From the NCBI GenBank assembly GCA_018333865.1, contig JAGXSE010000026.1, positions 1-47,571 of the forward strand: DNA of 47,571 nucleotides, written 5' to 3'. Origin of the DNA: Syntrophomonadaceae bacterium. Its GTDB lineage: Bacteria > Bacillota > PH28-bin88. The position numbers and the translations under genes were made by a program. This document shows positions 1,731 to 47,295 of the stretch, piece by piece. Below the pieces are notes generated by a model. That model made no database searches and had not been told where the DNA came from. It saw only the letters and a list, made by a program, of their open reading frames with translations. Every line of letters starts with the position of its first letter. Position 1 is the first letter of the stretch.

Positions 1731-1762
1731 CTAGAATTGAAAACTAAGGGGTGCAGTTTATT

Positions 1763-3606: not shown

Positions 3607-3729
3607 TCAGCGTCAAGATGGTTCTTGCATCAGTCAGGACACTGATTAAAATTCTTCGTGCTGCGGCAAGTATCAACCGCTTGAAAGCAAAAAAGTAAGC
3701 ACGCAAAAAATAGTCGCATTGGGTTCAAT

Positions 3730-3759
3730 AAAGGAGGAGGAAGTGTTTCCTCCTCCTTT
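3730..3759 (+). terminator. Strong hairpin, probable terminator
   Basis: A perfect 13-bp stem (AAAGGAGGAGGAA / TTCCTCCTCCTTT) closes a GTGT tetraloop between the aminotransferase and hutH. The descending arm ends in TTTT, giving a short U-run. It probably separates the two transcription units. The ascending arm also looks like a Shine-Dalgarno sequence but no start codon follows at a useful distance. Confidence 0.65.
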
Positions 3760-3814
3760 TCAAAATTTGTTGGGGTTATGGATTAATTGCTTATAGCAAC
3801 TGGGGGTTTTTGGT

Positions 3815-5350
3815 ATGGGCTATTCGTCAGGTTTAGTTGAAATTGATGGTGAAAAGCTTTTAATTCCCGATGTGGTACAGGTTGCCCGCCATGGCACGCC
3901 AGTTGCTATTTCAGAAGCTGGCAAACATAAACTAGAGCTGGCAAGGACAATAATTGACCGTTTGGTCACCCAAAATGTTGTCACCTATGGTGTCAATACG
4001 GGGTTCGGCAAACTTAGCGACGTAATTATTTCGCCCGAGCAGACCGGACAACTGCAATATAATCTTATCACAAGCCATGCTGGCGGAGTTGGAGAGCCCT
4101 TTGAGGAGGAAATAGTAAGAGCCATCTTGCTGTTAAGGGCCAATACCCTGACCAAGGGCTACTCGGGCATAAGCACAAATATTGTTGAAACAATGATCAG
4201 GATGCTTAATGCTGGGGTACATCCATTAATTCCTAAAAAGGGCTCTGTTGGGGCCAGTGGCGACCTGGCTCCGTTAGCCCATATGGCTCTTGTGTTGATT
4301 GGTGAGGGGGAGGCCTTTTTTCAGGGGCAAAGGTTGGCCGGACGGGATGCTTTGCAAAAAGCCGGACTAAGACCTGTAACTCTTAAGGCCAAAGAGGGAT
4401 TGGCTTTAATCAACGGGACCCAGGTCATGGGCGCATTAGCCACCATCGGGGTGCATGACGCAGAACAACTTTTTAAGATTGCGAATATCAGCGCCGCGAT
4501 TACAATTGAAGCTTTAGGCGGCATCACGGCTGCTTTTGATAAGAGGTTGCATGTGGTTAGACCACATCCCGGCCAGATTAAATGTGCGGAACAGATCATG
4601 CGCTTGCTCTCCGGTAGCAAACTTATGTCACAAGCGGTTTATGGGAGAGTGCAGGATGCCTATTCTCTGAGGTGTATACCGCAGGTACATGGCGCCAGTT
4701 GGGATGCTCTGGAGTACACCCGGCGAGTTATCGAAATAGAAATTAATTCTGCCACCGATAACCCATTAGTGTTCCCTGATCAAGGAGAAGTCGTTTCTGG
4801 AGGAAATTTTCATGGTCAACCTTTGGCTTTAGCGGCTGATTTTTTAGCTATGGCAGTAGCTGAGATTGGAAATATTGCTGAAAGGCGCATTGAAAGGTTG
4901 GTTAACCCGCAGTTAAGCGGCCTACCCGCCTTTTTAGCCCAAGATAGCGGACTGAATTCCGGTTTAATGATTGGACAGTATACTGCTGCAGCTCTGGTAT
5001 CCGAAAATAAAATCCTTGCCTCTCCAGCTTGTGTGGATTCCATTCCAACTTCAGCTAATCAGGAAGACCATGTGAGCATGGGGAGTATCTCAACCAGAAA
5101 GTTAAGGGATATAATTCAGCATACCTGTTATATCCTGGCGATAGAACTTCTTTGTGGTTGTCAAGCCATGGAATTTAGGCCGAAGGCCATGGGGCGCGGC
5201 ACAGTGATTCCTTATCAACTGATCAGAAAAGTTGTGCCTCCTCTTACCAGAGATAGGCCTATTCATGGTGATATAGAGGCGGTATACGAATTAATAATGA
5301 CAGGTAAAATAGTATCTGAAGTTGAAAAGGAAATTGGCCTATTAACTTAA
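3815..5350 (+). CDS. hutH: Histidine ammonia-lyase (HutH-like)
   Basis: 511 residues, the usual HutH length. The Ala-Ser-Gly triad that cyclises to the MIO electrophile is at residues 147-149 within GSVGASGDLAPLAHMAL. Other family signatures are VTYGVNTGFGKLSD near the N-terminus, ALINGTQVM, SATDNPLV and GQYTAAALVSENK. The enzyme deaminates histidine to urocanate, or a related aromatic amino acid. The ATG at 3815 follows TGGGGG at 8-13 nt. No hutU, hutI or hutG is in the window, so the rest of histidine breakdown lies elsewhere or the substrate differs. Neighbours are an aminotransferase and an asparaginase. Confidence 0.9.
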   Translation: MGYSSGLVEIDGEKLLIPDVVQVARHGTPVAISEAGKHKLELARTIIDRLVTQNVVTYGVNTGFGKLSDVIISPEQTGQLQYNLITSHAGGVGEPFEEEIVRAILLLRANTLTKGYSGISTNIVETMIRMLNAGVHPLIPKKGSVGASGDLAPLAHMALVLIGEGEAFFQGQRLAGRDALQKAGLRPVTLKAKEGLALINGTQVMGALATIGVHDAEQLFKIANISAAITIEALGGITAAFDKRLHVVRPHPGQIKCAEQIMRLLSGSKLMSQAVYGRVQDAYSLRCIPQVHGASWDALEYTRRVIEIEINSATDNPLVFPDQGEVVSGGNFHGQPLALAADFLAMAVAEIGNIAERRIERLVNPQLSGLPAFLAQDSGLNSGLMIGQYTAAALVSENKILASPACVDSIPTSANQEDHVSMGSISTRKLRDIIQHTCYILAIELLCGCQAMEFRPKAMGRGTVIPYQLIRKVVPPLTRDRPIHGDIEAVYELIMTGKIVSEVEKEIGLLT

Positions 5351-5413
5351 TTTGCAGTAGATAGTATAGATGCTTCGCGATGATTTTTTGAAAAAAATAA
5401 AGGGCAGGAAATA

Positions 5414-6412
5414 ATGAAAGAAATAATCGTTGAGGTTCGCAGAGGAAAATTATTGGAAAGTAAACATCGGGTTCATGCAGTGATTGTCGATAATGAGGGG
5501 CATGTAGTAAAGTCATATGGGGATGAGCTTTTTTTTACCTTTTGGAGGTCTGCTGCAAAACCATTCCAAGTATTGCCATTAATTGAGCTGGGTGGTCATA
5601 AAAGGTTTGGGTTTACTCCCCAAGAAATTGCTGTTATGGTTTCTTCCCACAACGGTGAGCAGGAACACCTGCATGCTGTGGAAAGTATCTTAAATAAAAT
5701 TGGCTTATCGGAAACCAGCCTGGATTGTGGTACAGCCATTCCTTTGGGACGCAAAGTGGCAAAAGAGTTAGCCCAATCAAAGAAAAAACCTACGCTTTTG
5801 CATAATGCCTGCTCAGGAAAGCATGCTGCGGCATTAGCCTTAGCTAAAACCATGGACGTTGATGAGCAAGGCTATATTTTGCCAGAACATCCGGTACAGA
5901 AAAAATTGCTGGAAGCCATTGCTCACTGCACTGATCTCAATGCAGATACAATCGAAACTGCAGTAGATGGATGTGGCTTTCCTGTTTATGCCTTGCCTCT
6001 ACGCAACATGGCAATGGCCTATGCAAGGCTGGCGAAAACCATCAAGCGCTGCAATGATAAACAAGAGGCGGCTCTGGAACTTATCCGCGAGGCAATGGTG
6101 CGTAATCCTTTTTACGTTGCAGGCTCTGAGCGAATTTGCACAGGAGTGATGGAAAAAACCGGAGGGGAAATAGTAGCGAAGCAGGGAGCTGAAGGCATAT
6201 TTTGTATGGGCCAAAACAGTGAAGGTTTAGGTGTTGCCATTAAGGTTGAAGATGGGGCTCATCGCGCCTTAGATCCGGTTGTGGTATCCCTGTTGAATGA
6301 TTTAAATGTCTTGCCAGCGTCAGCAGCTCCTCTCTCTGATCTTTTGGAACCGGTGGTACGTAATCACCGAAAAGAAATCATCGGATACTTAACCGTTATA
6401 AAACCTTGTTAA
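5414..6412 (+). CDS. L-asparaginase II family protein
   Basis: 332 residues matching the thermolabile asparaginase family (PF06089), which is unrelated to the classical AnsA/AnsB fold. Visible motifs are FWRSAAKPFQVLPL, VMVSSHNGEQEH, LLHNACSGKHAA and AVDGCGFPVYALPL. The ATG is preceded by AGGGCAGGAA. It lies about 60 nt after hutH on the same strand, and a GNAT gene follows closely, so these may form one unit releasing ammonia from amino acids. Asparagine hydrolysis is inferred from the family. Confidence 0.85.
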   Translation: MKEIIVEVRRGKLLESKHRVHAVIVDNEGHVVKSYGDELFFTFWRSAAKPFQVLPLIELGGHKRFGFTPQEIAVMVSSHNGEQEHLHAVESILNKIGLSETSLDCGTAIPLGRKVAKELAQSKKKPTLLHNACSGKHAAALALAKTMDVDEQGYILPEHPVQKKLLEAIAHCTDLNADTIETAVDGCGFPVYALPLRNMAMAYARLAKTIKRCNDKQEAALELIREAMVRNPFYVAGSERICTGVMEKTGGEIVAKQGAEGIFCMGQNSEGLGVAIKVEDGAHRALDPVVVSLLNDLNVLPASAAPLSDLLEPVVRNHRKEIIGYLTVIKPC

Positions 6413-32578: not shown

Positions 32579-32780
32579 TTATTCGCCCTGCACCTTCGCA
32601 GGGCCTTTTCTTTTGTCCAACAACCCATCCAAACTCGCTGCTGCCAGCTTTGCCATCTCCGGTGTAACATGGCTGTAAAGGTCAAGGGTCATGGTTATGC
32701 TGGAATGGCCCAGCCTTTCCTGCGCCAGTTTAGCAGGTATGCCTCGCTGCAGCAGCAGGGTAGCGTGTGTGTGCAGCAAG
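32579..32780 (-). pseudogene. Tyrosine recombinase (integrase), C-terminal remnant
   Basis: About 67 residues on the minus strand match the end of an integrase catalytic domain: HTHATLLLQRGIPAKLAQE, RLGHSSITMTLDLYSHV with the likely nucleophile tyrosine, then PEMAKLAAASLDGLLDKRKG to the stop at 32579. The arginine of the usual HDLRHTHA is lost (FLLHTHA), and recognisable similarity stops near 32780, so the N-terminal and core halves are absent. Position and direction beside tRNA-Leu are those of an island integrase. The product cannot be active. Confidence 0.82.
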
Positions 32781-32803
32781 AAATCCAAATGCTTGGATTT
32801 CTT
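32778..32803. repeat. Perfect 11-bp inverted repeat at the integrase break point
   Basis: AAGAAATCCAA (32778-32788) and TTGGATTTCTT (32793-32803) enclose ATGC. It lies exactly where recognisable similarity to the minus-strand integrase ends. It may be a recombination scar, an element end or a terminator for either direction. Confidence 0.6.
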
Positions 32804-32865
32804 CGCCACGCTTTTGCTCTTCAGTTTCTCCGCAATGGCAGGCATGCCCTTGCTCTGTAGCGGCT

Positions 32866-33000
32866 CTCGGCCACACAGACTTATGCATGACCAAGAGATA
32901 TGTGGTACATGCAAAACAGGATATCCGGGAGCAGCATACTCTGGCAACTTTCCTGAATTCCATACTACCTAATAGCGATAGAGTTAGAAAGACAAGGTAG
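32866..33000 (+). pseudogene. Second tyrosine recombinase, C-terminal remnant
   Basis: On the plus strand, codons from 32866 read LGHTDLCMTKRYVVHAKQD and continue to IREQHTLATFLNSILPNS and a stop at 32998-33000. LGHTD-x2-MT-x-RYVH is the box II/nucleophile end of XerC/phage-type recombinases. It differs from the minus-strand remnant (LGHSSI, YSHV), so it comes from another recombinase. Nothing upstream in frame looks like the rest of it. Two unrelated integrase ends facing each other indicate repeated insertion and deletion at this tRNA. Confidence 0.7.
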
Positions 33001-33175: not shown

Positions 33176-34690
33176 ATGGAAGAAATCAGACAGACGTTTC
33201 GGATAATTGATCTTTTTGCCGGAGCGGGTGGATTTTCCGAGGGTTTCCTGGAAGTTGAGGCTTTAACGGGAAAAAGGGCTTTTGAGGTAGTTAAGGCTGT
33301 TGAAATAGATAGGGCAGCATGTATTAACCTGATCGAACATCTGGAATCCTACGGATTACCTGGAAGACAGATTGTGTTTGAGGGGGATATTGGGCATGAA
33401 TTTACTCAAAAGAGTATCATCAAAGAGGGAATAGATAAGAAGGTTGATATTATAATTGGTGGACCACCATGTCAGACTTTCAGTTTGGTTGGGCCTGCCA
33501 GAGTCGGTGCAAGCGATCTGCGGCTGAAACTGAGTAAGGATCCCAGGAATAAGTTGTACAGGCACTTCTTGGAAATAGTGGAGGCAATCAGGCCAGCCTT
33601 TGTGGTTTTCGAAAATGTTGAGGGAATAGTTTCAAAAAGAGATGAAGATGAATTGACTGGCAATAGCAAGAGGGTAATTGAATTTGTAACAGATTCCCTG
33701 CGAGACATTGGGTACGACCCATCATCTGTTCAAGATGGAGAGAAAACTCGCGATTACTTGGTTCTAAATGCAGCAAATTTTGGTGTTCCGCAGTTTAGAA
33801 AAAGGGTAATAATAATTGCTAACAGATTGGGAATCCCAAACCCCATCCCAAAGCCGAACTGTGGACCGGTATTTGGGACAGACTATTCCACAACTGCTGA
33901 TGCGATTGAACACCTGCCAGTAGTGCTCTCCCGGATAAATACCGTTGGATTTGACAAGTTGAAGAAAATTGAAGTTTTTTTGGAAAAACCAGATAGATAT
34001 CTCAGGTTTTTTGTTGATGCTCTGAATAAACTTGCAGTTAAATATAAAGTGAGAGCCGAGGGGGAAATGCTTGTCAGGTTATCAAGTGTTGTCAGCGAGG
34101 CTTTCCTTGAACTGGAGGCTTCCGAGCAGAGAAATATTGCCTCATTACGAAAATTCGTTGACGTCTATAACAGTAATCTTGATAGCCTTGAAGGCCGTGA
34201 TCTGGAACATGATAGATTTCCAGCTCCGCACATTTCCAGACCGCATAATATCAGAGACGTGTGTATTTTTTCCCGGATGGAACCAGGAACTAATTCAGCC
34301 TGGTTCATGAAACCATCCTCAGGTCATTACAATGAAGATCTGGCCAGGATTTACCCGTATAACTCTGAGAACCATGAGGATACATATGTGAAACAGAGCT
34401 GGAAATCACCCTCAACCACGATCCTGTCGCACATGAATCGGGATGGGTTGCGATTTATCCATCCCGAGCAACCACGAACATATACTCCATGTGAGGCCGC
34501 TCTTTTGCAGTCCTTCAGGCGGAAGGAAAGATTCTCGCTAAGTCGCTCTAACCAGAGCGATATTTTCAGGCAGATAGGCAATGCGGTTCCCCCTCTTATG
34601 GCTCGCGCCATTGCAAAGGCCATTTATGATACCCTCATTGATTATCAAGCAATGCAAGATTCATGCACATCCGCATGGTGCACACAATAA
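33176..34690 (+). CDS. DNA (cytosine-5-)-methyltransferase, DrmMII-like
   Basis: 504 residues with the ordered 5mC motifs: I DLFAGAGGFSEGF (residue ~11), IV GGPPCQTFSLVG with the catalytic cysteine (~95), VI VFENVEG (~146), VIII QFRKRVIII (~206) and X QIGNAVPPLMARA (~466). The region between VIII and X is long (~250 residues) and holds the target-recognition domain plus a helical insert. Presence upstream of drmA/drmB-like genes suggests the methyltransferase of a class 2 DISARM-type system, marking self DNA. It may also be a solitary or restriction-linked enzyme; no restriction endonuclease is seen beside it. The recognition sequence cannot be predicted. Confidence 0.9.
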   Translation: MEEIRQTFRIIDLFAGAGGFSEGFLEVEALTGKRAFEVVKAVEIDRAACINLIEHLESYGLPGRQIVFEGDIGHEFTQKSIIKEGIDKKVDIIIGGPPCQTFSLVGPARVGASDLRLKLSKDPRNKLYRHFLEIVEAIRPAFVVFENVEGIVSKRDEDELTGNSKRVIEFVTDSLRDIGYDPSSVQDGEKTRDYLVLNAANFGVPQFRKRVIIIANRLGIPNPIPKPNCGPVFGTDYSTTADAIEHLPVVLSRINTVGFDKLKKIEVFLEKPDRYLRFFVDALNKLAVKYKVRAEGEMLVRLSSVVSEAFLELEASEQRNIASLRKFVDVYNSNLDSLEGRDLEHDRFPAPHISRPHNIRDVCIFSRMEPGTNSAWFMKPSSGHYNEDLARIYPYNSENHEDTYVKQSWKSPSTTILSHMNRDGLRFIHPEQPRTYTPCEAALLQSFRRKERFSLSRSNQSDIFRQIGNAVPPLMARAIAKAIYDTLIDYQAMQDSCTSAWCTQ

Positions 34691-34858: not shown

Positions 34859-35524
34859 TCAGGGTGGTTCCGGGATGCGCCTGTTATTAGCGCAATATGA
34901 ATTGATTGTACACTGGATACATTCTTGTTTTTGGGGCCTACATATCTGTTGTCCATGTGCTATCAGGTTTACATGAAGTTTAAATGCTAGGTCAGGCGGA
35001 ACCTGTTTGGATAGCTCCCGTTGAGCCTGCCGGTGGTCAAGTCTCCAGGGAATTGTCCCCAGTCTTTTCAGAACACGAATGCAATGGGTATCTGCAGGAA
35101 AAACCTTTCTGTCAAGAGCATACATCATTACGCAAAGAGCAGTCTTTGTGCCCACACCAGGAAGAGATGTCAGAAATGATAGGCAATCCTCATTGGATTT
35201 TTCCCGTAGTGGATCAAGGGTAATCCTACCGAATTGATGAAATAAAAATTCAGCAACATCTCCGATGTTTTTTACCCGCATGTGCTGCAGCCCACACGAG
35301 TAGAGGAGATTGTACAGTTGGGTTTCATCCATATCAAGTAGCATATCAGGCCAGGGAACTAATTCCAGTATGCGCTCAAATACATGCTGAGCTTTTCTGA
35401 TGGGTGTCTTGCGTGTCAGCATTACGTAGAACAGGCACTCAACTGGATCTTCAGGATTGCCGTGTCTCGGGTTATGATATTTTCTTTCCAGCTGGTCGCT
35501 TATCAGATTCCATAAAGCCTCCAT
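34859..35524 (-). CDS. Endonuclease III-like HhH-GPD DNA glycosylase with Fe-S cluster
   Basis: About 221 residues from the second ATG (35524), preceded by GGCGGAG; the ATG at 35539 is an alternative. The helix-hairpin-helix is LTSLPGVGTKTALCVM, carrying the Schiff-base lysine position of Nth, and the catalytic aspartate is in PADTHCIRVLKRLG. The C-terminus has C-x6-C-x2-C-x5-C (from QQICRPQKQEC to SYC), the Nth [4Fe-4S] pattern. It should remove damaged or mismatched bases and nick DNA. It is convergent with the 5mC methyltransferase, so repair of T:G mismatches from deaminated 5mC is a good hypothesis, as for MIG-type enzymes. It could instead be a defence nuclease. Generic nth is the other reading. 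Confidence 0.85.
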   Translation of the reverse strand: MEALWNLISDQLERKYHNPRHGNPEDPVECLFYVMLTRKTPIRKAQHVFERILELVPWPDMLLDMDETQLYNLLYSCGLQHMRVKNIGDVAEFLFHQFGRITLDPLREKSNEDCLSFLTSLPGVGTKTALCVMMYALDRKVFPADTHCIRVLKRLGTIPWRLDHRQAQRELSKQVPPDLAFKLHVNLIAHGQQICRPQKQECIQCTINSYCANNRRIPEPP

Positions 35525-35552
35525 TTTTTCTCCGCCCATTCTACGTCCCTAG

Positions 35553-35678: not shown

Positions 35679-38600
35679 ATGGAAGGAAAAAAGGGCATTC
35701 TTGCAGAATATAGCCACAATTTCAAACAAGATTTACGGAGAAAAAAAGATATGAGCAGTAAAGAAAACTTCCGGGAAATAGCTGAAATTTGGCTGGAGAA
35801 ACTGGAATCATGCCAGTTTGCAGGAGAGATATATATAGATGAGGACCAGATGAGGCAGATTGCTGGTGAAATGATTCGAAAATATGATTCTGGCCAGATT
35901 ACTGCTGATCAGTACGCAACAATACTTGTTATCACTGCTGTGAACTGTGCCTATCATTACTATGATGACGAAGGTTTCTGGCCTCACTTTGCAAGACTGG
36001 TTCGAAAGGACCTTTCGGATTTTCAAATGGAGACGTTTGGCCGCACTATTGAAGTAAAGCTGGATACTCTTGGGTTACTTAGAACAAGGAGAACAGGTCC
36101 TTTCCGTTATGTTGGAGCCCTCCTCGAGCAGTGTGGTGTGTCAAGGAGGTACATAGCCCCATTTGCTCGTATCTTGCGTGAATTAAGTTGTGGCCGCCAG
36201 AGCTGGGATTCTGTTGTGGCTATAAGTTATAGAGAATTCCAGAGGATTATCTCTGAGTTGAACTGTTCAAAATATCTCAAGAGCTTCCTCATGGATGCTG
36301 AGGGATGGAAATTCACTATTCAGGTATGTCAGTTGCTCCAGTACTACGAACTGGGGATAATGACGCTGACAAACCTCACGGAGATACCTGGATTTCAACC
36401 ACATTTCTGGCAGGAATTAATCAGTCACCTGGCTCTACGGGCGAGGACTGAGAGAAAAAAACAAAGTCTGGTATTCAGGCCAAGAATATGCTTTTTTCCA
36501 GAAAAAGGTCGTATTGGTCTGGCCTTTCCCTCATCGCAATATCTGCACGGAATGACTCAACCATCAATAGCCCTACCCTGGGATTTTCCCGTGACCCTGT
36601 TCGATAGAAATGAAAGTTTGTGGTCATTGAAGTATTCCGGGACCATTAAAAATCCTGACGGTACAGCACAAAACTGGGAGATTGATGGCTGGGTTCCAGA
36701 CGGGAGGCCAGTTGTATTTGACATCCGCCACGGACTAATCAGTCGCGGGGCAGTGGTTTCCCCTGGCGAATATTTCCTTCTGGTTCCCCGTGGCTATACC
36801 CATGGCTGTAGTACCAGAAAGAATTTTGGGTCCGTAATGCTCCCTGGAGATTGGAATTATCACGCTTTTCAGGTCCAAATAAATGTGGGTGATTTTGTTG
36901 CCGGGTACAATACAGAAACGGAGCGTTCACCGGAAATCACTCTTGAGTGGTCAGTCCCCGAGAAAAAACAATTCGTGATGACGACACCCGGCCTTGAGGT
37001 CTTCTCTGGTTCCATGCCGGAAATGACTATCTCTGATTTTTCACTGGTTGAGAGCAATATCGTTGGACTATTCTTTGAAACCAATTTCGGTACTGGGTGG
37101 ATCAGGAACAAGGAGGGACTGCAGGACTTCAGGCAGGAATGCAATAAAAGAGTGCCTGTTGTCGGGCGCATCTGGCTTTCCTACCTTAGTAGAAGTATGA
37201 ACTCCGATAGTTTACAGGCATCTTCCCAAGTAGAATTCTGTCTTCTGCCAGAGCTTGGACTGAAGTTTGAAAACAGGCTTTATGGATTTGATGAGGAAGC
37301 AGTTATTTCCGGGAACTTCTCCTGTTGCAAGGTTATATTTGAAGGCTGCAAATATAACCCTGACGATAGGTGTTGGATAGTCCCTTCAAACCTGGATGAG
37401 GTATCAGGAAACGTGACCTGTGGTGAAGTCTCGGTATCAATAAAATCAAGGCTTTTCAGAGCCCGAATGTTTGGTACCGACGGCAGATCTCTCAGATATC
37501 TTATGGGAACCGATCTGGTAAGTTTAGAAGGCATAATACTTTCAGGGTACCCCGAAGGAGAGGCAGTTCTTTTCCTGGATGGAGAGAGCGAGAGGAGGTT
37601 AGCTGTTAAATACGATACCTGGGGTCGGTCAGAAATAAACCCTGTACAGATAATGGAGTTCTTGCGGCATTCCCCTAACCAGATTAGCGAGGTTCTTGTC
37701 AGCTGTATGGGCAGTAGAGTGACTACAGGGACAGTGATTGTTGATCTCGAGAACTTGAAGAGAAGGATTTTCCTGGGTGAAAAGTACTCAATATCGGTAT
37801 GTTCGGCAATGAATCTCAAGAAGCTCATTCATGTCTGTGAGCGTCTCTGTATTGGGGAACGAGCCACGATAAACTTGAACAATTTGCCTGGAATAACCAC
37901 CGAGTTCAATTACTGGGTTAACAGTATTTTTGCATGTGCCAGCCTTATTGATAATACAGACATACGGGTCGAAGGTCGACCGGTTGACTGGAAATCCCAA
38001 CTTCTGGATAATAAGCTCCGGCAGATTCTGGAAGCCTATGCAAGCAGGAATGAAAATGACCAGATAGCGAACTTTGCCGTCTCAGATATAGATATAATAC
38101 CATCGGTTGCTCGGTGGCAACGGGCCGTGAGGGAGGCGATAGGACACTTCACACCCTCAGAATTAATATCTTCCCTTCAGGAATGGGCAGTTGACGTGAA
38201 AGAGAATCGGCTTCCGACAAGGAGCCAGATATCAAAAAGAACCGGTGGGACAAACCTAACAAGGGGATGGGTAAATTATTACCATGCTGGCAGGTATGAG
38301 GACACACTGCAAATCCTTGCCAGTATGGAAAGAGAATCACCGATTATGCGGGATACAGGTAATTTTCTTCTAGCCTTACTTTTTCTGAGGCAGGCCCGCA
38401 TCCGTTCTGCATTCGAGTTATTAGAGGACAAGAAATCGCCAGGAATCTTTCCCCAAGAGTATTACCTTCTAAGATATATTATCTCAGTGTTTCTAGACCA
38501 CAGCCCTCCCCCTCTGGACATCAAGGAATTCACCCCCAGTCTACCCTTGCGACCTGAAGACAGAGTTTTACTTGACATCGCACTGGAGGTACAGGGCAAT

Positions 38601-38801
38601 TCTGGAAGAGCAGGCCGTTATGGTATTGATACTGATGACTGGCTTGTGCTGTTGTTTATCCTGCATATATCTCAAGACAGAAAAGATAGGGAGATCGTTC
38701 TTGGCAGAATTCATAGTATCAGAAAGAGTATCCCCTCCTCCCCAGAATTATCAGTAGTTGAAAAAATAAAGAAACTTGCAGGAGGAAGTTACAGTGCATG
38801 A
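35679..38801 (+). CDS. Large protein of unknown function, first gene of the defence operon
   Basis: 1040 residues that I do not recognise. ATG 35679 has AAGGGG 6 nt upstream; ATG 35751 with GGAG is an alternative. Three zones can be seen. Residues ~25-270 are helical, with YHYYDDEGFWPHFARLV and a hydrophobic pattern that may bind DNA or protein. Residues ~270-740 are rich in beta strands (for example EIDGWVPDGRPVVFDI, EYFLLVPRGYTHGC). Residues ~790-1035 are helical, with a TPR-like stretch (GWVNYYHAGRYEDTLQILAS). No nuclease, ATPase or membrane motif is evident. It overlaps the next gene by 8 nt. It fills the place where class 2 DISARM has drmE, but I cannot show homology. Confidence 0.8.
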   Translation: MEGKKGILAEYSHNFKQDLRRKKDMSSKENFREIAEIWLEKLESCQFAGEIYIDEDQMRQIAGEMIRKYDSGQITADQYATILVITAVNCAYHYYDDEGFWPHFARLVRKDLSDFQMETFGRTIEVKLDTLGLLRTRRTGPFRYVGALLEQCGVSRRYIAPFARILRELSCGRQSWDSVVAISYREFQRIISELNCSKYLKSFLMDAEGWKFTIQVCQLLQYYELGIMTLTNLTEIPGFQPHFWQELISHLALRARTERKKQSLVFRPRICFFPEKGRIGLAFPSSQYLHGMTQPSIALPWDFPVTLFDRNESLWSLKYSGTIKNPDGTAQNWEIDGWVPDGRPVVFDIRHGLISRGAVVSPGEYFLLVPRGYTHGCSTRKNFGSVMLPGDWNYHAFQVQINVGDFVAGYNTETERSPEITLEWSVPEKKQFVMTTPGLEVFSGSMPEMTISDFSLVESNIVGLFFETNFGTGWIRNKEGLQDFRQECNKRVPVVGRIWLSYLSRSMNSDSLQASSQVEFCLLPELGLKFENRLYGFDEEAVISGNFSCCKVIFEGCKYNPDDRCWIVPSNLDEVSGNVTCGEVSVSIKSRLFRARMFGTDGRSLRYLMGTDLVSLEGIILSGYPEGEAVLFLDGESERRLAVKYDTWGRSEINPVQIMEFLRHSPNQISEVLVSCMGSRVTTGTVIVDLENLKRRIFLGEKYSISVCSAMNLKKLIHVCERLCIGERATINLNNLPGITTEFNYWVNSIFACASLIDNTDIRVEGRPVDWKSQLLDNKLRQILEAYASRNENDQIANFAVSDIDIIPSVARWQRAVREAIGHFTPSELISSLQEWAVDVKENRLPTRSQISKRTGGTNLTRGWVNYYHAGRYEDTLQILASMERESPIMRDTGNFLLALLFLRQARIRSAFELLEDKKSPGIFPQEYYLLRYIISVFLDHSPPPLDIKEFTPSLPLRPEDRVLLDIALEVQGNSGRAGRYGIDTDDWLVLLFILHISQDRKDREIVLGRIHSIRKSIPSSPELSVVEKIKKLAGGSYSA

Positions 38802-40128
38802 TGTCATCAGAGAAGTTGAGGTTCTGTCCGAAAAATACCGGAATAACAATAAGCTGAGCCGGGTGGATGCATTGAAGGTTGAGGAATCGCTGGGCCTTCT
38901 CTTTATGGCTCCTGAAACCTTTGAGGTTGCATGTTATCTGATGCTGAAGCTGCCTTCAGATTGTGCATGCAGGGCACTCATCTCTTCACTGCAAGGTGGT
39001 GATACGGAAAGGCAGAATAAGATTGATAGCATTGTCAAACACAAGGGGTTTAACAGTTTTTCAGGTCGTTGCCGACAGCTGGAATTGCTTAAACTCATGA
39101 TAGCAGATTCGAAAAGGAGTGCATTTTTCCTTCTAACTCATCTTGCTGAACAGCTTACAATGGCAGGAAGAAAGAAGCCAGGTTCCCGGATTGTTGCCAT
39201 GTTTCGTGAAAGAATGATGGACAACCTTGAGCTATTACAAATCCCGCTAGAAAAGCTGAGCGTAAGTCCCAGGCAAATCAGTAATATCTCCGCCCTTGTG
39301 CTTTTGGGCCTTGTTGATATGCACAGGCAGGATCCTGGAAGTGATGGCAAAAAAATAAAGTTCCTTGAGTGGTTAGCAGGTTCCGGTAGCCAGCCTACCC
39401 TTTCGGATACATTTGTTTGCGAAGTTGAAAAGGATACAGCAAGCTGGGCTGAGGATATTCAGCGGGAATGTGTTCGACTTGGCCTGATCAGGATCGTGAC
39501 TTTTCGGACTGAGAGCGAAACTCAAACTCCTAAAAAAGAGACAGCGAAGTCTGAGATTGCTCATGTAACAGATTTCGATGGGGTTCCGAAGATTGAACAG
39601 GGCAAAGGTACCACAATCTGGGACAGAAGCTCGGGTCCCGTCAGACAGCTTGAGGCGGTAGCTGAATATCTTATCAGTCTTGAGGAATATCTTGCCAGCC
39701 TGAAAAAGGAGTTGCACAGTATTCAGGCTAATCTGGACTCTGAAAAGAAACAGAGGCTTGAGAGTCAGATGCTTGTTGCCAGACTGAAGGAGGATAACCG
39801 CAGTCTTGCTTTACAAAACAAGGAAATGAGCACAGGGCTGGAAGCGGCTGAAAAAACAGTTCTCCATCTGGAGAGGGAAGCCGAAAATCGGAGCAAGGCA
39901 CACCGGGAGGAAATAGATCTCCTTCTCAGCCAGATGGACAAGGAAACCGATTATAACATGAAGGAATTTAAGAATATGCTGGCTCAATCCCTCAGATTAC
40001 AATATATGAACTTTCTTGAAGTGGAAGACACGCCCATGACTGCCGATCTTGGCGAACATCTGCGATACTCTATCAGGAAGGTATTCAAGCTGCTGGAGGC
40101 CAGGGGCATTTCAGTGGAGGAAGGATGA
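38794..40128 (+). CDS. Helical protein with coiled coil, possible Hsp70 partner
   Basis: About 444 residues from GTG 38794, chosen for GGAGG at 38781-38785; it overlaps the previous gene by 8 nt. Residues 1-200 are almost all helical and HEAT-like in look. A polar linker follows. Residues ~285-390 form a strong coiled coil with heptads (QLEAVAEYLISLEEYLASL onward, many E/K/L). The last ~50 residues form a small helical end with HLRYSIRKVFKLLEARGISV. The layout of coiled coil plus small C-terminal domain, directly before an Hsp70 gene, resembles GrpE-type exchange factors in outline only. A scaffold role is as likely. Not recognised as a named family. Confidence 0.78.
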   Translation: MHDVIREVEVLSEKYRNNNKLSRVDALKVEESLGLLFMAPETFEVACYLMLKLPSDCACRALISSLQGGDTERQNKIDSIVKHKGFNSFSGRCRQLELLKLMIADSKRSAFFLLTHLAEQLTMAGRKKPGSRIVAMFRERMMDNLELLQIPLEKLSVSPRQISNISALVLLGLVDMHRQDPGSDGKKIKFLEWLAGSGSQPTLSDTFVCEVEKDTASWAEDIQRECVRLGLIRIVTFRTESETQTPKKETAKSEIAHVTDFDGVPKIEQGKGTTIWDRSSGPVRQLEAVAEYLISLEEYLASLKKELHSIQANLDSEKKQRLESQMLVARLKEDNRSLALQNKEMSTGLEAAEKTVLHLEREAENRSKAHREEIDLLLSQMDKETDYNMKEFKNMLAQSLRLQYMNFLEVEDTPMTADLGEHLRYSIRKVFKLLEARGISVEEG

Positions 40129-40136: not shown

Positions 40137-41567
40137 ATGAATTTTGGGATTGATTTCGGTACAACGAACAGTGCCTGTATGGCCATTCAGGAAAGAAGAA
40201 GATCTGTCAAGTATACTGATGGATATGGAAACCCTTTCCCCTCACTGGTTATCGTGGACCGGGTGACGGGTAAGGTGCATCGTGGCAGGGAAGCCTGGAA
40301 AAACCGGGAAGAGCTCAGCGATTCCTGTGAGGTAATTCCCTCTGTAAAAACATACCTTGGTACGAATAAGACATGGAAGATAAAAGGGAAAGAGTGGACA
40401 CCAGAGATGGTTGCAGCAGAAGTCTTCCGGGGTCTTAAGGAGCAGGTAAGCAAAAAGGGGGCCGTAGACCGGTTAGAGGAGGCTGTGGTGGCGGTACCGG
40501 TAGGCTTTCCCACAGGAAAGAGAGTGGCACTGAGGCGGGCTGCACAGATCGCAGGGATATCAATTCAGAGTTTTGTCAGCGAGCCCACAGCTGCATTGTT
40601 TTGCCATTATGGCGAGATAGGGATGTACCCCACGATAGGTGTACTGGACTGGGGCGGAGGCACTCTTGATATAGCGATTATTGAGAACAGAAAAGGACGG
40701 ATAAGAGAGCTTTCCACCAGCGGCCTCAATCTTGGCGGGGACAATATTGACAGAAAGCTTGCTGAGTGGGCTCACGATAGAGTGGTCAAGGAAAAGGGAG
40801 GCGGTATCTCGTTTGCGCAGATGCCTTCAGGTGCGCGCGACAGATTGATCGCCAGCTGTGAGCAGGCAAAAAAGGATCTTACTAATGACGATCAGACCGA
40901 AATCAGGATCTGGCGGTATGGAGATTTTGGAGAGATTAACATTGTAATTGATATCGAAATGTTTTCCAGCCTTATAGCTCCTGATATTGCACAGGTAATC
41001 AGCTGTTTTGAAGAGAGTGTTTCCCGGGCCAGGTTAAGTTTTGAAGAGCTGGGATGTATCCTTATGGTCGGGGGAAGTGTAAATCTGCGACCATTCAGCA
41101 ATGCTGTGGCCAGTAGATGGAAGGGGAAGGTCTTTTATCCGGGAGATTCTGACTGGAGCGTTGCAAGGGGCGCAGCTAATCTTAGCCTACAGCCAGGAAA
41201 CTATGTACTGGCACAGGATGTTAGTGTCCGGATGTCTGATGGTAGCCTTTTCCCACTTGTCAGTCAGGGGGATCATGTTACTTTTGGTAACACCACAACA
41301 TACACCTTTGCTCTTGTCGAGGATTCTTCAACCGCAAATTTTGTTATCTGCGATGAGAATGGCAGGAATATTGGCTACCTGAATGTCCCATCCTTCGGTT
41401 TCTTTCGAGAAAAGATTCCGCTGATTGTTGCAATAGATAATAACATGATATTTCAGGTGACTGCAAGAAGTCAGGAAAGAGCCGAGATTACAAGACAGGG
41501 GTGGCGTTTTGCTGGTCTTCGATTGGATTACCAGCTCCCGGTAGTCGATCTTGAGGTGACTGAGTGA
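40137..41567 (+). CDS. Hsp70-like ATPase, short form without lid
   Basis: 476 residues. The actin/Hsp70 ATPase is complete: NFGIDFGTTNSACMA (phosphate 1, residues 2-16), VVAVPVGFPTGKRVALRRA, QSFVSEPTAALFCHY (connect 1), GVLDWGGGTLDIAII (phosphate 2, ~residue 171) and CILMVGGSVNLRPF (adenosine, ~311). After ~residue 360 there is a beta-rich domain like the substrate-binding beta-subdomain (FTYTFALVED-type strands), but no helical lid and no EEVD-like tail. DnaK is ~640 residues. It is sandwiched by coiled-coil and SF1 helicase genes, unlike dnaK with grpE/dnaJ, so it is probably a specialised chaperone-type switch of the defence complex. Confidence 0.88.
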   Translation: MNFGIDFGTTNSACMAIQERRRSVKYTDGYGNPFPSLVIVDRVTGKVHRGREAWKNREELSDSCEVIPSVKTYLGTNKTWKIKGKEWTPEMVAAEVFRGLKEQVSKKGAVDRLEEAVVAVPVGFPTGKRVALRRAAQIAGISIQSFVSEPTAALFCHYGEIGMYPTIGVLDWGGGTLDIAIIENRKGRIRELSTSGLNLGGDNIDRKLAEWAHDRVVKEKGGGISFAQMPSGARDRLIASCEQAKKDLTNDDQTEIRIWRYGDFGEINIVIDIEMFSSLIAPDIAQVISCFEESVSRARLSFEELGCILMVGGSVNLRPFSNAVASRWKGKVFYPGDSDWSVARGAANLSLQPGNYVLAQDVSVRMSDGSLFPLVSQGDHVTFGNTTTYTFALVEDSSTANFVICDENGRNIGYLNVPSFGFFREKIPLIVAIDNNMIFQVTARSQERAEITRQGWRFAGLRLDYQLPVVDLEVTE

Positions 41568-43960
41568 TGCAAGGACCGTCAAATATAGAATGTTCAAGTA
41601 ATGTATATATACTGAAGGGAGATTTTTATAGAGACAGGGAATTTCAGGCAAGGGTTAGAGGGCGAAAAAATCTCCATACCATGCTCAGGATTCTAGCGGG
41701 TCTGTCATGGGTACCTGGAGAGGTCTCCGTTGACGAGTATGTTGACAGATACCTGACACAGAGCCAGAAAGATGAATGGGAAAAAGGGAAGCCATGCGCC
41801 TTGGTTGAAAATCGTGATGAACTTGTTTGGGGCCTGGTAAGGCGTGATAATGGACAGTTTGTTGAGTGCCGGTGCTACAGAACCCAGTGCTCACTCTTCA
41901 GAAGTTGTCGGCCTGATTACCCGGCTGACAGTCCCGAAATCCTTCCACCCGAAAGACTACCTTCCTGTGACCATGGCGAACCGAATGAAGAGCAAACATT
42001 GCCAATAGTAGATCTGGATTTGATTTCAAGATACGAGGACAAGTTGTCTGATGGCCTGTCAGGGGACGCAATAATTATAGACTTTGAAGACGAACCTGAA
42101 ATCATTCCACCCATTTTCGAGTGGAAGTTGCCCTCATCAGACCCATCACCGGCAGTTGATAGACAGGAAGTTATTATTAGAAGCCTTCCCCATGAATACA
42201 TGCTGGTACAGGCTGGACCAGGAACCGGCAAAACCCATTCGCTTCTAAGGAAGCTTGAATACATGGTTGATGAGAATAGAATGGTTGAGGCCGATTCAGT
42301 GTTGCTTCTCTGTTTCACCAGAGCTGCTGTCAGTGAAATAAAGGACAGATTTAAGGCTGGTGTTGATTCTGGCAAGTACTCCGATGATCTGTCCCGGTTA
42401 GAGATCAGAACTTTTGATTCATTTGCCACCAGGGTGCTGATTGCCCGTAATATTGATCTGACAGGAAAGGATTATAATAGCCGTATTGAAATGGCTATAC
42501 AGGAGATACAGGCCGACCCTGAAATAATTGGTGAAATGAGACATTTAATAGTTGATGAGATCCAGGATCTGGTTGGAATCCGGGCTCGACTGGTGCAGGC
42601 AATCCTGTCATGCAAGCCTCCAGACTGCGGCTTCACTCTTCTGGGAGATTCCCTTCAAGGAATCTATGATTATCAGATTAAGGACTGTCCCGGTGAACCT
42701 GGGGCGACAGATCTGCTTGAATGGATAATGAGTAATTTCCCAGATCGGCTAGGGGTGGTAACACTTGATCGGAATTTTCGCCAGAATGGTGAACTGGCGT
42801 CCTTCATGGCAAAGTCACGAATGTTGCTGGAGGGGGGGACAGAAAGGGCAGTCCGCACGTTTATCCGTAGTGTGGAGGAGCTAAAGTGCTGCGGTAAGGA
42901 TTATAACTTTCCGCTGCCCCTTGAAAATCACAAAAAAATTGGTATACTGTGCCGAACCAATGGTGAGGCACTAAAAATATCCAACTATTTCAGGCAACGA
43001 GGAGTTGACCATGTGCTGAGGAGGCACCAGGATTCTCCTGAATTGCCACCGTGGATAGCCGAAGTGTTATCGGCAGGAGAGGTACATCTGACCAGGGAAC
43101 AGTTCATCAACATTGTGACCAGTCTTGACCTGCGACACCCCATGGATAACGAAAAACTTTATAGTGTCCTGCATTCAGTAGGAGATCAGAACACGCCCCG
43201 GGTTCTTAATCTTAACGGCTTGAAAAGAGCACTGGCTCTTGGTGCGCGCCTTCCGGATGAGTTATACGAGGAAAGGCGGTGCCATATATTTTTGAGTACC
43301 ATTCACCAGTCCAAGGGACGAGAGTTTGAAGAGGTTTTTCTTCTCTCTCCACGGCTGAATGAGAAGGATCAAATCATGGAGGAAGCCAAGGTGCTTTATG
43401 TTGCAGTTACGAGGGCGAGACAATCTCTGGAAATAATAAAAAGATCATTCAGCAGGGAATGGCTGACGAAGTCAGAAACAGTGGATCGCTGGTTGGAAGT
43501 AGCCAATAAGAGGGGTGGCGGTAAGACCCTGGTTAGCCTTGAGGTGGGGAGGGAGCAGGATGTTGATAATCAGGGTTTTGTGGATGGACTTTTGGTCAGT
43601 AACCCGGAGGAAAACCAGATTTATCTCAGAATGCATGTTGTACCAGGAGACAGGGTGGAAATTAGAATGGGGGAAGAAATGGATTTTTATGGAATCTATC
43701 ACAAAAGAAGACTTATTGGTAGGATGTCCATGAAATTCCATCTTGAGGTAGGGGAAATCATGAAAGAGGTTTATGGGTCTTCCTCACACAGACCAATGGC
43801 ATTTGAAGAGATATATATTGATCAGGTGCATTCTGTAGTAAAAAAGCCGGAGACGCTCAGGAAGACTGTACCTGAACCTTACTTTACCAGCGGGGTGTGG
43901 CATGGGGTAAGCCTTTCCGGCCTTGCCAAGGTGTTCTGGCCATGGGATTGTAGGAGGTGA
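41567..43960 (+). CDS. UvrD/PcrA-like SF1 helicase with unique N-terminal domain
   Basis: About 797 residues from ATG 41567 (GTG 41564 also possible), coupled to the Hsp70 stop by TGATG with GAGGTGA upstream. SF1 motifs in order: I QAGPGTGKTHSLL (~217), Ia LLCFTRAAVSEIKD, II IVDEIQDL (~329), III LLGDSLQGIYDY (~360), IV LDRNFRQNGE (~402), V STIHQSKGREFEEVF (~577), VI VLYVAVTRARQSLE (~611). The N-terminal ~200 residues are not helicase and contain a cysteine-rich CRCYRTQCSLFRSC. No RecB-type nuclease is seen at the C-terminus, though ~170 residues follow motif VI. It likely moves along ssDNA with 3'-5' polarity, as does the family. Confidence 0.87.
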   Translation: MQGPSNIECSSNVYILKGDFYRDREFQARVRGRKNLHTMLRILAGLSWVPGEVSVDEYVDRYLTQSQKDEWEKGKPCALVENRDELVWGLVRRDNGQFVECRCYRTQCSLFRSCRPDYPADSPEILPPERLPSCDHGEPNEEQTLPIVDLDLISRYEDKLSDGLSGDAIIIDFEDEPEIIPPIFEWKLPSSDPSPAVDRQEVIIRSLPHEYMLVQAGPGTGKTHSLLRKLEYMVDENRMVEADSVLLLCFTRAAVSEIKDRFKAGVDSGKYSDDLSRLEIRTFDSFATRVLIARNIDLTGKDYNSRIEMAIQEIQADPEIIGEMRHLIVDEIQDLVGIRARLVQAILSCKPPDCGFTLLGDSLQGIYDYQIKDCPGEPGATDLLEWIMSNFPDRLGVVTLDRNFRQNGELASFMAKSRMLLEGGTERAVRTFIRSVEELKCCGKDYNFPLPLENHKKIGILCRTNGEALKISNYFRQRGVDHVLRRHQDSPELPPWIAEVLSAGEVHLTREQFINIVTSLDLRHPMDNEKLYSVLHSVGDQNTPRVLNLNGLKRALALGARLPDELYEERRCHIFLSTIHQSKGREFEEVFLLSPRLNEKDQIMEEAKVLYVAVTRARQSLEIIKRSFSREWLTKSETVDRWLEVANKRGGGKTLVSLEVGREQDVDNQGFVDGLLVSNPEENQIYLRMHVVPGDRVEIRMGEEMDFYGIYHKRRLIGRMSMKFHLEVGEIMKEVYGSSSHRPMAFEEIYIDQVHSVVKKPETLRKTVPEPYFTSGVWHGVSLSGLAKVFWPWDCRR

Positions 43961-43965
43961 GAGTA

Positions 43966-46900
43966 TTGAGCATTGAAAGGTATTATGAGGCTCGGGAGTT
44001 GCTGGAGAGCTTTTTCAGACGGGATCTGCTGGGTCCCGTCCAAGCGGATGAAGTCATCAGTGATACCTGGCCAGCGGATTACTATATCTGTGGTCGGTTA
44101 TTCCCCCAGGATGTCGAGTTGAAACAGGAGGATATGGAGCAAAACCTGATGGATGATGATTTCGAGGGGAGTGATCAGTCACTCAACATGTGCTATTCCG
44201 TATATCCCTCCTCGATGGCCATTTCCTTTTCCGTAATTGCCGGGGAGACCAGGCTTAGAATACTTGCAAGCGTTGCTCGATATATCCCTATGGAAATAGA
44301 AACTGAAAGTGTACGACGGAAGACTATTATTGAATGGCATCGAGACTTCACATCCAGATGGATTGATGTGTATACTGACAGGAAGTACCAGGAGATAGAG
44401 CTTGTTCATGGTCTTCAGCTACGGGTATACCTGCAAAAGGTGTATGACGATGGTTCGCGCACACTGACAGTTGCAATGATCAACATTTTCAGGAAGCAAA
44501 TGGACATCATCTCAAACAATGCCGCAACCTTCTTTCAGCCAAAAATACAGGTTTTTGGAGAGGAAGAGGGAAAAGCGGTTTTTATCGAGAAAAGAATGCG
44601 TGTCAGCCTTGGAAAAGATCCTGAGCTCCTCAATCTTGAAATGCTGTATCGCCATAACCGCACATTTGCAGTTGGGCATGGATGCAGTGCTGGGTGGAAA
44701 AGTTCAGGCGTAACGGCCACAGAGATCTTCACAGAGTTTCTGCCTGGCTACGAACTTTTTCAGATGAAGCCTGCAAGCCATGTGAAAGGTGAAATTTTGA
44801 GCTTCGAATTTCTTGGGCAGAATTCTTCTGAGGTAGTCTCTTCAGGACTTGAAGAGATGGGTGCTTCGTACGAAAAATGGATTGAACACATGAGACTGGA
44901 AATTCCAACACTTCCAGAAAGGTACCGTACGGTGGCCAGCGGAAATATTGAAAGGTGCGTGGAGACCCTAACACGGATTCGGGATGGTATTCATGTACTA
45001 GCGGAGAACGAGCTGGCTTTCAAGGCTTTCCAGATGGTTAACCAGGCCATGTTAAGGCTTCGCCTTCAACAGGGGGGGGCAGGCAACAAGGCCGGACATG
45101 GCTGGTACCCGTTTCAGCTGGCATTTATCCTTCAGCAGATCCCTTCAATATCTGATCCCTTGAATCCATACCGGGATGTTGTTGACCTCCTGTGGTTTCC
45201 CACAGGCGGGGGGAAAACAGAGGCTTATCTTGGTCTTTCTGCATTCACCATCTTTCTTAGAAGGATGGTGGCCAGGAGGCAGGGTGTTCCAGGGGGCGGA
45301 GTGACCATCCTGATGAGGTATACACTGAGGCTTCTGACACTTCAGCAGTTCGAAAGGGCTTCAGGCCTGATCTGCGCGTGTGAATTGATACGACGAGAAA
45401 ATCCCGGGATCCTTGGTGATGAGGAAATCTCTGCAGGTTTATGGGTTGGCGGGGGTTTAACCCCAAATAAACGAAGTGAGGCCATACATTCACTGCAAAC
45501 CATCAAGCGGGAGGGTTTTGAAGCTCTATCAGAGGATGAGGCTAATCCCTGTCAGATACTGAGATGCCCGTGGTGTAAAAACGCGATTACACCACAGTAC
45601 TACGCTGTCTCTGCCGACCGGATGGTTGTTTCCTGCCCCAACAATCTTTGTGGTTTCAATCATGGTCTGCCAGTGTATGTTGTTGATGAAGACCTGTATG
45701 ACCACGGTCCAGCCCTGGTGGTTGGAACCATAGACAAATTTGCCCGAATGACATGGGAGGAGAAAGTGGGCAGACTGTTTGCTCTGAACTCCAACAGGCT
45801 TCCTCCCGAACTTATTATCCAGGATGAATTACACCTTATATCGGGTCCTCTGGGCACTATTGCGGGGCTTTATGAGGCAGCAATTGATGAGTTCTGCAGG
45901 CAAGATGATGTGAAGGCAAAGATTATCTCATCAACTGCGACTATTCGTAATGCCCATAGCCAGATCCTCAATCTCTACGGGCGGGATTTCAGGCAATTCC
46001 CTCCCCAGGGTATTGATATTCGGGATTCCTATTTTGCGGAGGAGGCTGGGGCTTCCGAAAGACCAGCAAGAAAATACCTGGGTGTTATGGCTCCGGGCAC
46101 CAGTGGCAACACCTTACTGATCAGGGTATACTCGATTCTTCTTTTTTCAACCCGTAATCTGAAAGCTAGCGGTTTTCCTGACAGTGTAGTGGATTCCTTC
46201 TGGACACTTGTCGGGTATTTTAACAGCCTCAAGCAACTGGGTGGGGCGGTCAACAATGTCATTGATGACGTGCATGGACGTTTAAAATACCTGTATGAGA
46301 CCAAGTTCAGGGGTGCGTTCCCGGTAGGCACCAGACCACCTGAGTACCCCGAGTTCGACGAGCTTACCAGCCGGAAGGCAAATTCCGAGATTGGTGAGAT
46401 CCTCAAACGCCTCGAGGTCCGGTTCCCAGATCCCAGGGCGTTTGACCTCATACTGGCCTCCAACATGCTTTCCGTTGGGATAGATATCGGGCGACTTGGG
46501 TTGATGGTGCTTCAGGGACAACCAAAATCCAATTCAGAGTACATACAGGCTACCAGCAGGGTAGGGCGCCAGAATCCCGGACTTGTCGTCACCATGAACG
46601 ATGCCTCACGCAGCCGGGATCGGTCACACTATGAACAGTTCCTCACCTATCACTCGTCACTTTACAGGTATGTGGAGGCCACCAGTCTGACCCCATTTGC
46701 TGAGCGAGCGAGGGACAGGGCTCTCCATGCTGTTCTCATCAGTCTCTCCCGGCACCTTATTGATGGGCTGAGGGCTAACAGTGATGCTGTACGGGTTCGT
46801 GTCCTGCATAACAGGGTTGAGGAGATGATAGAGCGTATACTGGAAAGGGTCAGGGTGATAGACGAGTCAGAAGTTGATGGCAGTAGAGAACACCTGTATG

Positions 46901-47076
46901 ATATTCTGGCTCACTGGGAGAATCTAGCCAGCACAGATCTGGTTTATCAGAAGTACACAAGACAACAGGGAATTCCCTTACTGACAGATAGATTTAACAG
47001 TGATGGTGATGCGATTCCTACCCTGAATTCAATGCGGAATGTTGATGTTGAATGTGATGTGATTCTGGAGGGATAG
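43966..47076 (+). CDS. DrmA-like DISARM SF2 helicase
   Basis: About 1036 residues from TTG 43966 with AGGAGG at 43952-43957; GTG 43957 lies inside that box. SF2 motifs: LLWFPTGGGKTEAYL (I, ~411), IIQDELHLISGPLG (II, DELH, ~619), ISSTATIRNAHSQI (III, ~655), LASNMLSVGIDIGRLGLMV (V, ~830) and YIQATSRVGRQNPG (VI, ~861). A zinc-ribbon-like insert with CPWC and CPNNLC lies between motifs I and II (~528-565). The N-terminal ~380 residues are a beta-rich non-helicase region. This architecture, with a DrmB-like gene next, fits DrmA of DISARM. It would translocate on DNA with DrmB to sense phage DNA. Confidence 0.85.
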   Translation: MSIERYYEARELLESFFRRDLLGPVQADEVISDTWPADYYICGRLFPQDVELKQEDMEQNLMDDDFEGSDQSLNMCYSVYPSSMAISFSVIAGETRLRILASVARYIPMEIETESVRRKTIIEWHRDFTSRWIDVYTDRKYQEIELVHGLQLRVYLQKVYDDGSRTLTVAMINIFRKQMDIISNNAATFFQPKIQVFGEEEGKAVFIEKRMRVSLGKDPELLNLEMLYRHNRTFAVGHGCSAGWKSSGVTATEIFTEFLPGYELFQMKPASHVKGEILSFEFLGQNSSEVVSSGLEEMGASYEKWIEHMRLEIPTLPERYRTVASGNIERCVETLTRIRDGIHVLAENELAFKAFQMVNQAMLRLRLQQGGAGNKAGHGWYPFQLAFILQQIPSISDPLNPYRDVVDLLWFPTGGGKTEAYLGLSAFTIFLRRMVARRQGVPGGGVTILMRYTLRLLTLQQFERASGLICACELIRRENPGILGDEEISAGLWVGGGLTPNKRSEAIHSLQTIKREGFEALSEDEANPCQILRCPWCKNAITPQYYAVSADRMVVSCPNNLCGFNHGLPVYVVDEDLYDHGPALVVGTIDKFARMTWEEKVGRLFALNSNRLPPELIIQDELHLISGPLGTIAGLYEAAIDEFCRQDDVKAKIISSTATIRNAHSQILNLYGRDFRQFPPQGIDIRDSYFAEEAGASERPARKYLGVMAPGTSGNTLLIRVYSILLFSTRNLKASGFPDSVVDSFWTLVGYFNSLKQLGGAVNNVIDDVHGRLKYLYETKFRGAFPVGTRPPEYPEFDELTSRKANSEIGEILKRLEVRFPDPRAFDLILASNMLSVGIDIGRLGLMVLQGQPKSNSEYIQATSRVGRQNPGLVVTMNDASRSRDRSHYEQFLTYHSSLYRYVEATSLTPFAERARDRALHAVLISLSRHLIDGLRANSDAVRVRVLHNRVEEMIERILERVRVIDESEVDGSREHLYDILAHWENLASTDLVYQKYTRQQGIPLLTDRFNSDGDAIPTLNSMRNVDVECDVILEG

Positions 47077-47079: not shown

Positions 47080-47295
47080 ATGAGACTGGGTGGACGGCGG
47101 AGAGAGTACAGAAAGGCGGGTCAGCTACGGCAGGGTCAATTCCTGACGACGTTCGGGTGCGGAGCAATTGTTGATCTGCCGGGAGAATCGGTTATTATGG
47201 CTGGAACCGATTTCTGGAGGCACCATGAAACAGATGAATTCAGGCTTTACGAGGAGACGTTGCAACGTGAGCGTAAAACTTTCCCCACCTGGTAA
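47080..47295 (+). pseudogene. DrmB-like gene, N-terminal fragment cut by an insertion element
   Basis: 71 codons after GGAGG, beginning 3 nt after drmA. GQFLTTFGCGAIVDLPGESV and IMAGTDFW are the conserved N-terminal block that I know from DrmB (DUF1998) proteins, which have about 600 residues. The frame ends TTW-stop where an IS66-like leader starts; the stop TAA seems to be given by the element's GTAA end. The rest of drmB, if kept, lies to the right of the element, outside the window. The product as it stands cannot fold as DrmB. Confidence 0.82.

Follow-up and report, generated by a model that had tools for sequence, protein, structure and literature searches.

How DISARM senses phage beyond methylation and free DNA ends is a question touched by one gene cluster in the window, the whole 47,571-nt stretch of DNA that was analysed, where a large protein (here called BIG) stands at the head of a DISARM-like operon. 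Its relatives, its predicted structure, and its gene company were examined for the part that it might play beside the DISARM helicase.

The BIG gene and its operon

BIG is encoded on the forward strand at 35679..38801, where the preliminary description had placed a 1040-aa protein. The reading frame is present, and it is considered a real gene because three homologs align with it, at about 35-37% identity, over the full length in two cases and up to an in-frame stop in the third. The product is probably 1016 aa long and starts at 35751, since the homologs begin at M25 (nt 35751) and the ribosome-binding site there (GGAG) is better than that of 35679. No family in the Pfam, PADLOC, or NCBIfam profiles was matched by BIG, and the BIG profile found no match among PDB sequences.

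The same description had BIG leading a transcription unit, and this was borne out. The successive distances as far as drmB are -26 (BIG/COIL overlap), 8 (COIL-Hsp70), -4 (Hsp70/UvrD overlap), -4 (UvrD/DrmA overlap), and 3 nt (DrmA-DrmB), so that BIG is taken to head one compact unit. COIL (38776..40128, forward strand) is a 450-aa coiled-coil protein of no recognized family, and was aligned with homologs from four other loci. It was considered as a GrpE-type Hsp70 partner, and this was rejected, as no Pfam GrpE was found in the proteins of the window, L009, and L018 (for L018, among the best 25 of 55 entries). The 476-aa Hsp70-type ATPase (40137..41567, forward strand; Pfam HSP70 E 2.4e-36), which is kept in five loci, carries the nucleotide-binding domain motifs DFGTTNSA, SEPTAAL, DWGGGTLD, and GGSVN, and appears to stop after a short beta substrate-binding part, the domain end being judged by eye. 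The 798-aa UvrD-type SF1 helicase (41564..43960, forward strand; Pfam UvrD-helicase E 1.3e-21; GPGTGKT, DEIQD, and VAVTRAR) begins with about 190 aa of non-helicase sequence. DrmA, the 1039-aa YprA-family helicase of DISARM (43957..47076, forward strand), is the fourth gene downstream of BIG, and was identified by PADLOC DrmA (E 1.6e-235) and by NCBIfam NF038325 (972.1 bits, above the cut-off of 950).

Upstream of BIG, at a distance of 988 nt, is the DrmMII gene (33176..34690, forward strand), which encodes a 504-aa 5-cytosine DNA methyltransferase (PADLOC DrmMII E 4.9e-156; Pfam DNA_methylase; motif GPPCQTFS). A divergent gene between the two (34859..35539, reverse strand) encodes a 226-aa HhH-GPD/Nth-like DNA glycosylase (Pfam HhH-GPD E 2.6e-12) with a C-X6-C-X2-C-X5-C iron-sulphur motif; its NCBIfam nth match (E 1.2e-21) is under that family's cut-off. 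This glycosylase adjoins the 5mC methylase in the place that is held by a Vsr endonuclease in L062 and L063, and it is possibly a mismatch-repair companion of DrmMII, acting on T:G mismatches from deamination. Further upstream, a 122-aa ORF (32579-32947, reverse strand) resembles, by eye, the C-terminal end of a tyrosine integrase, and is possibly left over from the element that brought the island in.

The gene after drmA, putatively assigned as drmB, is 56% identical to the gene in the same place of L018. Its 5′ fragment (47080..47266, forward strand) is broken after the 8-mer GTTGCAAC at 47259-47266, where an element of IS66 type, named from the sequence by eye, begins and runs to the contig end (47267..47571, forward strand). 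The remainder of drmB was found on contig C37 (L078) of the same genome, followed by a 586-aa NERD-helicase (PADLOC RTasNERD-Hel E 1.6e-40). Because GTTGCAAC is present as an 8-bp repeat at both junctions of the IS66-like ends, in the window and on C37, drmB is concluded to be split by an insertion, and in this genome the system may therefore be inactive. The G080 genes follow the same order through drmB and on to a NERD-type protein. The full order is thus DrmMII, BIG, COIL, Hsp70, UvrD, DrmA, and putative DrmB, with the NERD-helicase following on another contig. The presence of DrmMII and of DrmA above its cut-off, together with Hsp70 and UvrD, identifies the locus as DISARM-like. DrmC was not found after drmB, where the NERD-helicase stands instead; according to the accessible portion of PMC9142583, DrmC is dispensable and often missing in DISARM, and the name "DISARM-like" was chosen on these grounds.

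Relatives of BIG beside YprA-family helicases

Close relatives of BIG are few. The BIG profile matched 4 of 398 genomes of the phylum, namely the window genome, G080, G077, and, weakly, G386. A profile scan of genome contigs yielded three loci from 67 pattern matches, which were the G080 and G077 loci again and one new locus (L018), so that four close BIG loci are known, window included. The BIG sequence alone found no homolog in viral contigs or genome contigs, none in 60 relatives apart from its own genome, and, by tblastn, none in plasmids; the profile likewise found nothing in viral contigs. The order BIG-COIL-Hsp70-UvrD-DrmA-DrmB is kept in L009 (G080) and L018, and the contig of L011 ends within UvrD.

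These loci bear on a reading that we consider unlikely, in which BIG, COIL, Hsp70, and UvrD form a self-contained module that only happens to be linked to DISARM-like genes, and BIG acts together with Hsp70 and UvrD rather than with DrmA. The two halves are indeed found apart: COIL-Hsp70-UvrD stands in L010 (G163) on an 18.7 kb contig with no DrmA match, and UvrD-DrmA-DrmB stands in L062, L063, and L064 with no annotated Hsp70. However, the L010 contig starts 484 nt before COIL, so that BIG may lie beyond the contig start, and BIG is accompanied by DrmA in all three loci of sufficient extent (window, L009, and L018).

Several further features of these loci were recorded. The L010 homolog of UvrD (3194-4885) keeps the N-terminus and the C-terminal part and has no match to residues about 120-405; judged by this alignment, its helicase motor is largely missing. 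A 335-aa, weakly DrmC-like protein (4878-5885; PADLOC E 4.3e-8) is encoded 3′ of COIL-Hsp70-UvrD in L010. UvrD-DrmA-DrmB-NERD was found on plasmids of Rhizobium (L062 and L063) and Azospirillum (L072), with no Hsp70 annotated nearby; seven plasmid records matched the L062 protein and four loci were examined, two near-identical Rhizobium records and an unannotated Paracoccus record being left out. In L018, the BIG operon is preceded by NurA-like and HerA-like genes (1494-5112), identified by eye, from which insertion-sequence genes separate it.

The weak match in G386, a 961-aa protein (L019), adjoins a DruE-like helicase. A search with this protein found nothing in plasmids and matched 17 of 398 genomes, the query genome included. 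The matched proteins are about 930-1660 aa long, and two sets were aligned, MID (four sequences) and LONG (nine sequences). A DruE-like helicase is encoded directly downstream in 15 of the 17 (in two pieces in L040, L041, and L042); for L068 and L069 no judgement was possible, as the gene there is broken up or close to the end of its contig. Since the helicase served to find cyanobacterial loci L050 and L051, its neighbourhood there is given by construction. Profile comparison of the N-terminal domain of BIG gave matches to the cyanobacterial set (E 1.3e-11), LONG (2.1e-9), MID (1.5e-8), and a set comprising HYP and Druantia I proteins (1.1e-6). The beta-rich region of BIG alone matched LONG with E 5.6e-7 and MID only with E 1.2e-3, and whole-profile comparisons gave E 1.6e-8 for LONG (over BIG 201-683) and 4.3e-7 for MID (over BIG 16-637). 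By blastp against a small set, the cyanobacterial plasmid proteins matched the L018 copy of BIG with E 2.5e-9 and the window copy with E 3.5e-7 at best. On a Nitrosococcus plasmid, a 955-aa protein encoded between DruA and a PADLOC DruD/DruE1 pair has the N-terminal domain in common through the HYP set.

With the N-terminal domain, the beta-rich region, and a YprA-family helicase in the same operon all found, these comparisons place BIG in an unnamed family whose large members are encoded next to YprA-family helicases; it is not a singleton. The MID/LONG, cyanobacterial, and Nitrosococcus proteins share the N-terminal domain of BIG, and LONG shares the beta-rich region as well. LONG differs from BIG in a coiled-coil insert of several hundred residues, and MID/LONG-type partners sit by a DruE-like helicase, whereas the partner of BIG is DrmA. 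These relatives also argue against the self-contained module, as they adjoin YprA-type helicases and no Hsp70 or UvrD was noticed beside the MID/LONG-type partners in a survey of gene lengths and a helicase search.

Two other observations concern this family. G080 contains both the BIG operon (L009) and a LONG/DruE-like helicase pair (L046). The C-terminal domains of the MID proteins L022 (of L038) and L024 (of L040) resemble the RNA polymerase alpha CTD (Pfam E 2.4e-8 and 1.6e-28, respectively).

Predicted structure and comparison with DruH

AlphaFold modelling of full-length BIG from four sequences gave moderate confidence (mean pLDDT 63.8, pTM 0.39), and a layout of helices at 31-251, strands at 269-688, and helices at 690-1033. 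The N-terminal helical domain (residues 25-256; 35751..36447, forward strand), which is common to large partners of DruE-like helicases, was modelled well on its own (pLDDT 87.4, pTM 0.80). The model, fold alignment, and a profile match to LONG support the beta-rich, Ig-like region (residues 415-691; 36921..37751, forward strand), within which VIA-align found Ig-like domains at Z about 4-6. The predicted TPR-like C-terminus (residues 849-1040; 38223..38798, forward strand) aligned best with TPR-type proteins (Z 9.1, rmsd 5.6, 147 aligned), a match at a level (Z about 9) for which the tool warns of an arrangement common for helical repeats. A fold search with the full model returned Ig-like and TPR-like matches only, and both assignments are to be read as fold-level hints. 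For the N-terminal domain by itself, Foldseek returned no match with E below 0.7, and Z did not exceed 4.1. DruH (PDB 9tud) was absent among the fold matches listed for this domain, the fold library being one that may not include 9tud, and the lack of matches does not show a new fold.

The helical N-terminus, beta-rich middle, and TPR-like C-terminus of the preliminary description agree with this layout and with the TPR-type alignment. Its "unknown fold" no longer applies to the protein as a whole, the fold hints being Ig-like for the middle and TPR-like for the end. Structure prediction and profile-profile search, the checks that it had proposed, yielded the layout, the helicase-partner family, and a weak link to DruH.

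The C-terminus gives rise to another explanation, that BIG is a structural scaffold or an Hsp70 client that assembles the operon proteins and senses nothing. A TPR-like end, next to an Hsp70 gene whose ATPase motifs are intact, would suit such a role. Helical repeats often give TPR-like matches, however, and the relatives of BIG occur in two-gene pairs with a helicase, and we consider this explanation improbable.

The link to DruH was detected in the N-terminal domain. A 23-sequence profile of this domain from the superfamily matched the N-terminal domain of a DruH profile (the L052 DruH, PADLOC E 0, and eight relatives) with a score of 36.4 (E 9.6e-5, prob 58.5), compared to 20.5 for the best of 200 column shuffles and 12.2 for the reversed profile. 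In a decoy test with 71 windows of real proteins, the score was 34.0 for the DruH N-terminal window, 19.0 for a DruH window that overlaps it, and at most 17.4 for windows outside the DruH and LONG N-terminal windows. The N-terminal domain of BIG alone reached E 0.063 against DruH. Over the whole length, neither BIG (prob 1) nor MID matched DruH, and LONG did so weakly (prob 13, E 0.0022); the DruH beta region had no profile match to that of the BIG family, and hence only the N-terminal link was kept. BIG found no match to the PADLOC DruH profiles, with which genuine DruH (L052) scores E 0. Because BIG alone has no DruH match, the profile evidence is graded as suggestive of a relationship of the BIG superfamily to DruH through the N-terminal domain.

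DrmE was considered as well. In a comparison limited to the PADLOC and NCBIfam profiles and one candidate protein, BIG matched no DrmE. Out of 84 plasmid records that contain a stretch resembling DrmA, two were examined for DrmE. An 801-aa protein (L090), a DrmE candidate by position only and not labelled DrmE by PADLOC, did not match BIG.

The accessible text of PMC13192584 assigns DruH helical ends and three Ig-like domains and regards it as a likely sensor, a role that its authors call indirect. The same text reports that dimeric DruH nicks DNA, and that AF3 models put DNA along the N-terminal helices. By analogy, BIG might be a DNA-acting subunit, binding or cutting DNA, and not a sensor. 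However, no nuclease family in PADLOC, Pfam, or NCBIfam was matched by BIG, a NERD protein is already encoded in the operon, and DruH beyond the N-terminal domain is not detectably common to BIG, so that we hold this function to be doubtful.

Proposed role and comparison with known systems

The gene, the operon, the relationship of the N-terminal domain and beta-rich region, and the helicase association were established by computation. The packing of the operon, the presence of BIG with DrmA in three of four loci (the contig of the fourth ending inside UvrD), the profile matches, and the helicase association led us to a reading to which we give an even chance, namely, that BIG is an infection-sensing or licensing adaptor of the DISARM-like system, with a role toward the DrmA helicase like that of DruH. 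Counting against it are the failure of BIG alone to match DruH, the unmatched DruH beta region, the indirect sensor role and dimer nuclease activity of DruH itself, COIL-Hsp70-UvrD without DrmA in L010, and the small number of BIG loci (four). The earlier proposal of a sensor or scaffold thereby gains support through a family of YprA-helicase partners that weakly reaches DruH. Its framing around Hsp70 and UvrD is to be widened, the conserved company being a YprA-type helicase (DrmA or DruE) as much as Hsp70/UvrD.

As such an adaptor, BIG would dock on or control DrmA through its helical N-terminal domain, recognize a phage protein or a protein made upon infection through its Ig-like middle, and dock a partner, perhaps the Hsp70/COIL pair, through its TPR-like end. 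The Hsp70/COIL pair, with ATP, could switch or reset BIG. Licensed DrmAB might then load onto phage DNA without the mark of DrmMII, and this DNA would subsequently be processed by UvrD and the NERD-helicase. DrmAB is described as activated by, and preferring, unmethylated DNA with a 5′ overhang (in the portion of PMC9142583 available), and Druantia III as triggered by a phage tail protein in Mycolicibacterium (in that of PMC13316683). A broader and more tentative proposal is that a single ancestral sensor, common to the DISARM-like and several Druantia-type systems, gates the adjoining YprA-family helicase; in this sensor, a shared helical N-terminal domain would be joined to a fast-changing Ig-like middle (in BIG, MID/LONG, the Druantia I-type partner, and DruH), and BIG would have gained the Hsp70 pair as an ATP-driven switch.

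DruH has so far been described only within Druantia III. A shared N-terminal domain would join DISARM and Druantia III, would place in one family many large unannotated proteins that adjoin YprA-type helicases, and would make it testable whether the domain gates the helicase. Neither an Hsp70-containing DISARM operon nor the BIG partner family appeared in the titles and opening lines of abstracts of a mostly non-subscription literature, and the main text of a YprA-family preprint (PMC12458937), in its accessible portion, mentions no Hsp70, DruH, YjiT, or Ig-like domain.

Three known systems can be compared with this locus. In CoCoNuT, CnuD (Hsp70 NBD/SBD) likewise places an Hsp70-like unit in a predicted defence operon, and the available part of PMC11090510 describes McrBC-type systems that contain Hsp70 units and mentions a DISARM-like system next to McrBC; unlike CoCoNuT, this locus showed neither an McrB nor an McrC homolog in a scan of seven window proteins. 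The DruH of Druantia III (STY4851/ECs_5259, YjiT family) resembles BIG in size, in its helical-beta-helical layout, in a gene that adjoins a YprA-family helicase, and in the weak N-terminal profile match, whereas its beta region is unrelated by sequence and its partner is DruE; no druE lies beside BIG, and the YprA-family helicase of the operon is DrmA. DISARM itself differs from this locus, which has a NERD-helicase and no detected DrmC after DrmB, and extra genes for BIG, COIL, Hsp70, and UvrD, but the two have in common DrmMII and DrmA, which match known profiles, and, after DrmA, the putative DrmB.
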